DNA from: an uncultured delta proteobacterium
GTDB lineage: Bacteria > Desulfobacterota > Desulfobulbia > Desulfobulbales > Desulfocapsaceae
Reading direction: 5' to 3'
DNA length: 64,000 bases
Assembly: GCA_903875445.1 (NCBI GenBank)
Contig: CAIQWD010000016.1
Span: forward strand, 62,001-126,000
Shown here: positions 44,908 to 47,120 of the stretch, one piece after another
Numbering within the stretch: position 1 is the first letter of the stretch
Layout of the letters: each line of letters starts with the position of its first letter
The notes under the pieces: generated by a model
What the model saw: the letters and a program-made list of their open reading frames with translations, nothing else
What the model was told of the DNA's origin: nothing
Database searches by the model: none
Program-made: the position numbers and the translations under genes

Positions 44908-44935
44908 TTGACAGTTGTGAAGGGTGTGTTATTTC
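44908..44935 (+). promoter_or_regulatory. Possible sigma-70-type promoter for the PhzE-type gene
   Basis: TTGACA (44908-44913) is a perfect -35 match; TATTTC (44930-44935) after a 16-base spacer is a weak -10. A start near 44942 would give a leader of about 285 bases including the Trp-rich frame and the terminator. Position makes this plausible; the -10 is poor. Confidence 0.35.
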
Positions 44936-44996
44936 TACGGTTGGTGATGAAAATGTGTTTTCCTTTACCCAACCAAACAAGACAGCTGGACAAACC

Positions 44997-45080
44997 ATGA
45001 CAAGTGATTGCCGACAGAACCGGTGGTGCAGCGCCTCTCCTTGGCGCAGCTGGCGCATAGAGCTATTCCGGAGTCGGTAG
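44997..45080 (+). CDS. Candidate Trp-rich leader peptide (27 residues)
   Basis: ATG at 44997 begins a frame ending TAG at 45078-45080, with Trp at residues 10, 16 and 19 and seven Arg. The central sequence is NRWCSASPWRSWRIELF. It lies just before a terminator and then a gene of the anthranilate synthase superfamily, the arrangement of a trp attenuator. The Trp codons are not adjacent, as they usually are in trpL, and the ribosome site is weak, so this remains a hypothesis. Confidence 0.4.
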   Translation: MTSDCRQNRWCSASPWRSWRIELFRSR

Positions 45081-45105
45081 CATTTCAGGCTGAAACCCCC
45101 ATTTC

Positions 45106-45146
45106 AAAAAGCCCCGCAAACCTTCTCCAGGTTTGACGGGGTTTTT
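45106..45146 (+). terminator. Terminator/attenuator upstream of the PhzE-type gene
   Basis: AAAAAGCCCCGCAAACC (45106-45122) pairs with GGTTTGACGGGGTTTTT (45130-45146), with one bulged A, and ends in five T. AAACCCC at 45093-45099 could instead pair with GGGGTTT at 45138-45144, a possible competing fold. It is about 380 bases after the previous gene but only 82 before the next start, which favours an attenuator over a plain gene terminator. Confidence 0.7.
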
Positions 45147-45227
45147 CATTTCCAGCAACAGCTGTTCAGAGAAGAGCCCTCCAAGCCTGGCAAGAGCCTG
45201 CCGGGCATAACTTCAGGAGAGCGACGA

Positions 45228-47120
45228 ATGAACAGTGTGATTGCCGAAATTCTCTCGGGCAGGAGAGCTTTCTGCCTTATTCAGAGACAGGACAGCGAGG
45301 AGATCCTCGTTCTTTTCGGGCAACCAGGACAATATGAGTATCTTACCGATATTCCGAGAAAATATGGTCATGGCGGCGACCGACGGTGCTACGACAGCAT
45401 CAGCATCATCCCCTTTTGTCAGATAAAAGAGCGCGGTTTCGAGGTTCATGACGAGGGAGAAAAGATCCGCACCATTGTGGTCGAAATGCAGACCACTCTC
45501 TTCAAAAAGGACCTGTTGCGCCTCTTGCCGGATCGACCCATCCACCTTTTTGGCGATATAGAATACGACACAACCGAGGCGGAATACGCAGAAATTATCC
45601 GGCGGGTGGTGACTGACGAGATCGGCGAGGGCGAGGGAGCGAACTTTGTCATTCCGCGAAACGGCTGCGGTTGCATCGGCGGTTTTACCCTCGCTTCAGC
45701 TTGGAGTCTCTTCACTACCCTGGTGCGGGAGGATTACGGCACCTACTGGAAATATCTCTTCTACGATAGCACGCGTTTTTTTATCGGTTCGACACCGGAG
45801 CGTCATCTGCTGGTGGAAAGGGGCCGCGTCAAAATGAACCCGATCAGCGGCACCTTTCGCAAGGGTACCTCCTATGAATGCCGCCGGCATTTCAAAGAGG
45901 AACTACTGGGTTTTCTGAGCGACCCCAAGGAGATCAACGAACTCTTCATGGTGGTAGATGAGGAACTGAAGATGATGGCCCGGATGTGCAGAACGGGCGG
46001 GTCAATCGTCGGACCGCTGTTGAAAGAGATGTCCCAGCTCATCCATTCCGAATACATCCTCTCCGGGAACAGTGACCGGAATATCTTGGAACTCTTTCGG
46101 GAATCGATGTTTGCCGCCACGGTGGTCGGCAGCCCCGTCGAAAACGCTTGCCGGATAATCAAGAAATATGGACGGGCGTCGAGACGCTATTACGGCAGCG
46201 CCCTTATGCTGATAGGAAGAGACCCGGACGGCAGCGACTATCTCGATTCGCCCATTACCATCCGGACTCTTGAAATCGAGCCCACCGGAGTTTTCCATTT
46301 CAGTACCGGGGCAACTCTGGTCAAGGACTCGGTACCGGCGGAAGAGGTGCGCGAAACCGCCGCGAAATCGAGAGCCATTCTCCACCCCCTTTGCGGCAAA
46401 TCCGGCGGCCAGGTATCGCCGCCGATGCTGCCGATGCTTGCCAACGACGACGACATCGTCGAAGCCCTGCACCAACGCAACCAAGATTTATCGAACTTCT
46501 GGTTTTTTCGCCAGGATCAAACCGGCACAAGCAGGACGGGTTTTGCCCATATCTCCGTCACCATGATCGATAACGGCGATGATTTTATCCATATGCTTCG
46601 CCACCTCTGTAATTCACTGGGGATGCGAACTACGGTCATAGCTTACAACGACTACGAAGTCACCAAAGACCGAGCGGCCATCACCCTGCTTGGGCCGGGG
46701 CCGGGCAACCCGAACAACGGTGCGGATGATAAGATTCGTAAAAATATGGCGATTGCCAGGGCTTTGCTTGCCTTGGGGAAAAAGTCTCTGTTCATCTGCC
46801 TCGGCCACCAGATTCTTTGTCGCTGCCTGGGTTATCCGGTGCGGCGCAAGGAAAAGCCGTTGCAGGGCTCGCAAGTGGAAATCAACCTCTTTGGAATACG
46901 GGAGAAGGTCGGTTTTTATAACACCTTTGCCGCCTGGCAACCTGCTGCTTCGCCTTACGAATTGGCCACCCTCGACGGGCTGGAAGAACTGGCCGCTATC
47001 CGGAGCGAAAATTTCATCGGCTACCAGTTCCATCCGGAATCGATCCTCACCAAAAACGGCCAGACAATTCTGTGTCGGTCGATTGAGCATCTCATGGCGG
47101 GGATGTCGGGGCGGAGGTGA
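45228..47120 (+). CDS. Fused anthranilate synthase-family enzyme, PhzE (ADIC synthase) type
   Basis: A 630-residue fusion of a chorismate-binding synthase (about 1-400) and a class I glutamine amidotransferase (about 435-625). It resembles PhzE of phenazine producers, which makes 2-amino-2-desoxyisochorismate: IPFCQIKERGFEVHDEG, EYAEIIRRVVTDEIGEGEGANFVI, KMNPISGTFR, ELFMVVDEELKMMARMC and the GFYNTFAA stretch. The amidotransferase triad is Cys524 (CLGHQ), His602 and Glu604 (FHPES). No other phz or trp gene is in the window. It could be an ADIC synthase of an unknown pathway or an anthranilate synthase; the Trp-rich leader frame favours the second, the sequence type the first. Ribosome site AGGAGAG lies close to the ATG. 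Confidence 0.82.
   Translation: MNSVIAEILSGRRAFCLIQRQDSEEILVLFGQPGQYEYLTDIPRKYGHGGDRRCYDSISIIPFCQIKERGFEVHDEGEKIRTIVVEMQTTLFKKDLLRLLPDRPIHLFGDIEYDTTEAEYAEIIRRVVTDEIGEGEGANFVIPRNGCGCIGGFTLASAWSLFTTLVREDYGTYWKYLFYDSTRFFIGSTPERHLLVERGRVKMNPISGTFRKGTSYECRRHFKEELLGFLSDPKEINELFMVVDEELKMMARMCRTGGSIVGPLLKEMSQLIHSEYILSGNSDRNILELFRESMFAATVVGSPVENACRIIKKYGRASRRYYGSALMLIGRDPDGSDYLDSPITIRTLEIEPTGVFHFSTGATLVKDSVPAEEVRETAAKSRAILHPLCGKSGGQVSPPMLPMLANDDDIVEALHQRNQDLSNFWFFRQDQTGTSRTGFAHISVTMIDNGDDFIHMLRHLCNSLGMRTTVIAYNDYEVTKDRAAITLLGPGPGNPNNGADDKIRKNMAIARALLALGKKSLFICLGHQILCRCLGYPVRRKEKPLQGSQVEINLFGIREKVGFYNTFAAWQPAASPYELATLDGLEELAAIRSENFIGYQFHPESILTKNGQTILCRSIEHLMAGMSGRR

Follow-up and report, generated by a model that had tools for sequence, protein, structure and literature searches.

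The position of a gene for a PhzE-like fusion protein behind a short reading frame with Trp codons raises the question of which product such an enzyme makes and how it came to stand under apparent tryptophan control. The gene lies in the window, i.e. the whole 64,000-nucleotide stretch analysed here (contig CAIQWD010000016.1, positions 62,001 to 126,000), from an uncultured member of the Desulfocapsaceae (Desulfobulbales). The original prediction, made from the sequence alone, had left two answers: a PhzE-type enzyme working as anthranilate synthase, or an ADIC-derived product made under tryptophan control. The 27-codon frame, its three TGG codons, the terminator and the start of the fused gene were all recovered where it had placed them (Table 1). 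Most probably, a classical ribosome-mediated attenuator controls an anthranilate synthase that stands alone and is a TrpE-TrpG type fusion, PhzE-like and of the Streptomyces kind.

Table 1. Features of the leader region and the fused gene (positions within the window).
Feature	Position	Strand	Remarks
Possible sigma-70-type promoter, TTGACA-16 nt-TATTTC	44908..44935	+	Putative, read by eye; weak -10
Leader peptide ORF, 27 codons	44997..45080	+	Reads MTSDCRQNRWCSASPWRSWRIELFRSR, then stop; Trp codons 10, 16 and 19 are TGG at 45024, 45042 and 45051
Region 1	45009..45028	+	Forms the 1:2 helix (anti-antiterminator) with region 2; fold and duplex predictions
Region 2	45069..45092	+	Overlaps leader stop codon; core 45070-45078 GGAGTCGGT
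Region 3	45106..45128	+	Rising arm and loop of terminator; core 45120-45128 ACCTTCTCC, partner of region 2
Intrinsic terminator (3:4 hairpin) and T run	45106..45146	+	AAAAAGCCCCGCAAACC-TTCTC-CAGGTTTGACGGGGTTTTT; -23.4 kcal/mol; 1-nt bulge
Gene for putative fused anthranilate synthase (PhzE fold family)	45228..47120	+	630 aa; Pfam domains, model scores, tree

The protein combines a chorismate-binding domain (aa 157-380) with a class-I glutaminase domain (aa 446-618; Pfam Chorismate_bind and GATase). Its nearest solved structure is PhzE (3R74, E 1e-122), with TrpE entries far behind at about 1e-13 or weaker, which bears out the earlier impression of a protein nearer to PhzE than to TrpE; the MNPISGT active-site sequence is likewise shared with PhzE. 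Furthermore, the protein does not reach the cut-off of any of the listed NCBIfam models for TrpE, PabB and isochorismate synthase, and the domain search returned no match to Anth_synt_I_N. The parallel drawn at the outset with the fused TrpE(G) of rhizobia is apt for regulation, as fusion order and trp attenuation are shared, but not for the protein, which scores 114.8 against a curated cut-off of 739.15 for TIGR01815 (TrpE-clade3) and thus belongs to a different subfamily.

The fused gene is apparently monocistronic. No biosynthetic genes adjoining it were recognised in the window or at three further loci (L002, L004, L005), and the three loci compared have no neighbour genes in common. The earlier observation that the window holds no phz or trp partner is valid for the gene families searched for, since trpD, trpB, isochorismatase genes and further chorismate-binding genes were found on other contigs only. 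A separate trpE was found in the genome, in a trpE-trpG-trpD-trpC cluster behind rpsT on contig C40; trpB lies on contig C79, and a gene that reads as a PabB-type fusion on contig C21 (the names trpG, trpC, rpsT and PabB being read from the sequences and not taken from the family scan). No Trp-rich leader was seen before the canonical trpEGDC (G000 C40; L091 6250-7100), which follows an apparent rpsT and its terminator, so that regulation seems to differ between the two anthranilate synthases.

Within the family, 13 of 93 genomes carry the fused gene, as do 9 of the 194 genomes sampled from the order, while canonical trpE is present in 52 of the 54 good genomes of the family, including those of all carriers of the fused gene but one. 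Given these low counts and a canonical trpE in nearly all carriers, the fused gene is an additional copy kept by only some genomes, a distribution that both horizontal spread and repeated loss fit. The exception, G605 (genome 87% complete), is the sole carrier in the family for which no canonical trpE was matched, and may reflect a gap in the genome or the use of the fused enzyme as sole anthranilate synthase. Homologues rank from Desulfobulbales (53-76% identity) through single FCPU426 and Rhodospirillaceae records to Nocardioidaceae and other Actinomycetota (about 40%), and the phylum-wide search returned no further lineages. The patchiness, together with the canonical trpE of nearly all carriers, would also suit an anthranilate synthase that feeds a non-tryptophan pathway (such as one to a quinolone or to an anthranilate derivative that is secreted) and merely senses tryptophan; such a role is unlikely, however, with no biosynthetic neighbours recognised at the four loci and with Trp attenuation, which would follow the need for tryptophan and not that for a secondary product.

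The affiliation of the enzyme was assessed in a 55-sequence maximum-likelihood tree, which includes the WWW-leader relatives of Kitasatospora and Streptacidiphilus, leaves out the assayed Streptomyces protein and, being midpoint-rooted with no outgroup, does not show the direction of descent. All 15 phz-type (PhzD-linked) sequences split from the window protein (support 100/98), which thus stands outside the PhzE clade and falls inside a Desulfobulbales clade (100/98) adjoining FCPU426, Rhodospirillaceae and Nocardioidaceae relatives; the WWW-leader Streptomycetaceae relatives share a side with the phz clade under the midpoint root. Fused domains, likeness to PhzE and a place outside the PhzD-linked clade are among the features expected of a Streptomyces-type fused anthranilate synthase.

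At the level of single residues, 95/95 non-phz homologues, the window protein included, have Pro at position 348 (numbered as in B. lata PhzE), against Ala in 14/14 phz-type sequences; the position is a clade marker only. Ser217, Ser368 and Thr369 of the chorismate shell are said to set PhzE apart from anthranilate synthase (PMC5906492); the window protein has Ser, Ala and Thr at these positions, and since Ala at 368 is equally found in most enzymes of phz clusters, the three residues do not discriminate within the family. Ser368/Ala, tried as a marker of anthranilate versus ADIC formation, looked perfect with one PhzE but failed on inclusion of phz-type homologues from plasmids. According to PMC5958127, sequence gives no explanation for why PhzE goes no further than ADIC.

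An alternative in which a PhzE-type ADIC synthase under Trp attenuation supplies the precursor of an undescribed ADIC-derived product in these sulfate-reducer relatives would account for PhzE as the best solved relative and for the shared active-site motif, and would remove the apparent redundancy of a second anthranilate synthase beside the separate trpE; it is nonetheless unlikely, with the protein outside the PhzD-linked clade, with no PhzD-like isochorismatase in the genome or neighbourhood, and with anthranilate the better fit to Trp control. Two isochorismatase-fold proteins are present in the genome and neither is near PhzD, the best match reaching 20-35% local identity (E about 1e-6) as against 42-61% for the PhzD neighbours of phz-type genes. 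Likewise, the lack of common neighbours at the three loci stands against the annotated plasmid PhzE-type genes, most of which adjoin an isochorismatase gene (L106 has other phz genes with no isochorismatase listed, and annotation is lacking for L116 and L118). On an Agrobacterium plasmid (L109 3953-5902), the annotated neighbours of a PhzE-type gene are oxidoreductases and dehydrogenases, and neither PhzD nor any phz gene is among them. Of the two options raised initially, an ADIC-derived product is thus left without positive support, whereas a PhzE-type protein acting as anthranilate synthase agrees with the position outside the phenazine clade and with the leaders of actinobacterial homologues described below. 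Phylogeny and genome content therefore point to anthranilate, rather than ADIC, as the probable product.

The regulatory part of the proposal draws on comparison of leaders. At 14/14 other Desulfobulbales loci with upstream sequence, a leader with the W-R-x-W motif stands before a terminator, so that both the Trp codons and the covarying terminator are kept among relatives; the sole Desulfobulbales locus without a leader, L088, has a sequence that starts at the contig start. The leaders are 23-33 codons long and vary in the residues N-terminal to W-R-x-W, with 27-39 nt from the last Trp of the motif to the stop codon and 25-38 nt from the stop codon to the terminator. Within the motif, the Trp residues are constant, while Arg is encoded by different codons and the residue in the middle differs between leaders. 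The Trp codons of the window are spaced and not adjacent, and the L002 and L003 leaders have only two. All 15 leaders (window and 14 loci) therefore present the short ORF with clustered Trp codons of a ribosome-mediated trp attenuator. In every leader (window, L002-L005, L084-L087, L090, L096-L100), an Arg codon (CGN, in several synonyms) stands 3' of the first Trp of the motif; E. coli TrpL has WWR, with Arg likewise behind Trp.

Folding of the leader region is stronger than that of all 200 shuffles (z -3.9). A strong ribosome-binding site is not obvious by eye at the leader ORF, which is presumably translated. The promoter consensus scan gave no match on the strand of the leader; a TTGAC box is found upstream of the leader in L083, L084, L086, L087 and L089 as well. 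No Rfam family matched the leader region, and the one candidate considered, RybB (E 0.34), does not reach its gathering score and resembles terminators in general. A genome pattern search for TGGCGNNNNTGGC was too unspecific to use.

The evidence for the terminator is comparative, because the generic terminator scan found no match on the strand of the fused gene, probably owing to a bulge and an interrupted T run that lie outside its pattern. Across 14 sequences, the stem has 18 double-change cells against 5.9 in shuffles, with both sides changed in 6 of 15 pairs and a covariation score of 0.349 versus 0.203 in shuffles; 94.3% of cells are paired, a value that drops to 15-62% in slid controls. 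Hairpin, T run and covariation thus make up the conserved intrinsic terminator that a trp attenuator carries 5' of its structural gene.

The alternative pairings are conserved too. The 2:3 duplex is predicted in all 15 leaders, with a mean of -11.5 for native arms, -9.9 for arms swapped between species and -3.9 for other pieces of the same leaders; in the swap test, 78 of 20000 permutations were as low with all leaders and 186 of 20000 with nine representatives. The pairing of the window has a 2-nt internal mismatch, and in several species arms from other species pair equally well. The 1:2 duplex was also found in all leaders (native -14.9 versus swapped -13.5), providing the pause or anti-antiterminator helix of a trp attenuator, with a weaker swap test (362 of 20000 as low for all 15 leaders, 1375 of 20000 for the nine representatives). 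When the ribosome was modelled on the window by masking, a position at W10 or W19 left the 2:3 helix in place before region 4 exists, while a ribosome on the stop codon abolished it; with a stall at W16, the minimum-free-energy fold lacks the helix, as region 1 then lies upstream of the ribosome and is still free to pair. The W10 and W19 stalls and the conservation of the duplex correspond to a mutually exclusive antiterminator freed by stalling. In full-length folds of the window, the terminator prevails in every ribosome state, and attenuation must therefore be kinetic, as in E. coli.

The order typical of a trp attenuator, recognised in the original prediction, is hence well supported by leaders, terminator covariation and 2:3 pairing. 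A chance or relic arrangement, in which the terminator of the upstream PAS gene happens to follow a random small ORF, would suit the empty standard scans and the inconspicuous ribosome-binding site, but is scarcely credible with leader, Trp codons, spacing and terminator kept at the 14 other loci, with upstream genes that differ between loci where looked at, and with stem covariation and 2:3 pairing above controls.

Under the attenuator reading, plentiful charged tRNA-Trp would bring the ribosome to the leader stop codon, where it would cover region 2, permit the 3:4 terminator and keep the gene off. Uncharged tRNA-Trp would cause a stall at the Trp codons that masks region 1, so that regions 2 and 3 could pair, no terminator would form and the synthase would be made; an untranslated leader would allow 1:2 pairing and permit termination. 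The fused enzyme would then supply anthranilate as reserve capacity beside the unattenuated trpEGDC. Both the catalysis and the regulation of the fused gene, including the response of termination to tryptophan and the physiological role as reserve, are what we infer from sequence. The helix logic (1:2, 2:3, 3:4) and the placing of region 2 at the leader stop codon are those of the E. coli trp attenuator; unlike in E. coli, a single, apparently monocistronic gene is controlled, and in several leaders part of region 1 precedes the Trp codons.

A precedent that the original prediction missed is available in Streptomyces, which already combines trp attenuation with a PhzE-like fusion that has anthranilate synthase activity. 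The trpE of S. lividans is monocistronic and has trpL1, MFAHSTRNWWWTAHPAAH, in front of it (PMC8079986), and for S. venezuelae, experimental evidence of control through a trp attenuator (Lin et al. 1998, as cited in PMC4833913) and a fused anthranilate synthase (Ashenafi 2015, as cited in PMC5958127) are on record. A simple ORF scan, run with no control, found WW/WWW leaders before homologues in Kitasatospora, Streptacidiphilus, Kineococcus, Kutzneria and Aeromicrobium, and none before most Nocardioides homologues. The Streptomyces fused enzyme and these actinobacterial homologues are taken by us to be one family, also on account of the shared fusion and leader. As in S. venezuelae and S. lividans, an apparently monocistronic PhzE-like fusion stands behind a Trp leader peptide and a terminator in the window; the differences from Streptomyces are a W-R-x-W leader in place of WWW, an extra copy beside trpEGDC, and about 40% identity to the actinobacterial homologues. 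From PhzE, with which it shares the domain fusion and MNPISGT, the protein differs in its separate clade, the lack of PhzD or phz neighbours, Pro348 for Ala and the presence of a Trp attenuator. Because the Streptomyces fused enzyme, and not PhzE, is the apt comparison, the surprise of a PhzE-type enzyme under Trp control is largely gone.

What is known, therefore, is the mechanism and the enzyme type, both studied in Streptomyces; what appears to be new is the occurrence in Desulfobulbales, where a literature search, with most subscription journals outside its scope, found no earlier report of trp attenuation. In the tree, which has no outgroup root, the PhzE clade adjoins fused anthranilate synthases of actinobacteria that carry attenuators (Kutzneria, Kitasatospora, Kineococcus); PhzE may descend from an enzyme under Trp control, and this adjacency provides a lead on the origin of ADIC synthase from tryptophan enzymes. 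For the Desulfobulbales, the covarying set of leaders allows attenuation to be tested within the order. The best reading of the gene is that of an accessory, patchily distributed anthranilate synthase induced by Trp starvation, which may be dispensable for tryptophan synthesis given the separate trpEGDC. The attenuator-controlled fused anthranilate synthase would thereby be extended from Streptomyces to the Desulfobulbales, as a patchy extra copy beside an unattenuated trp cluster.
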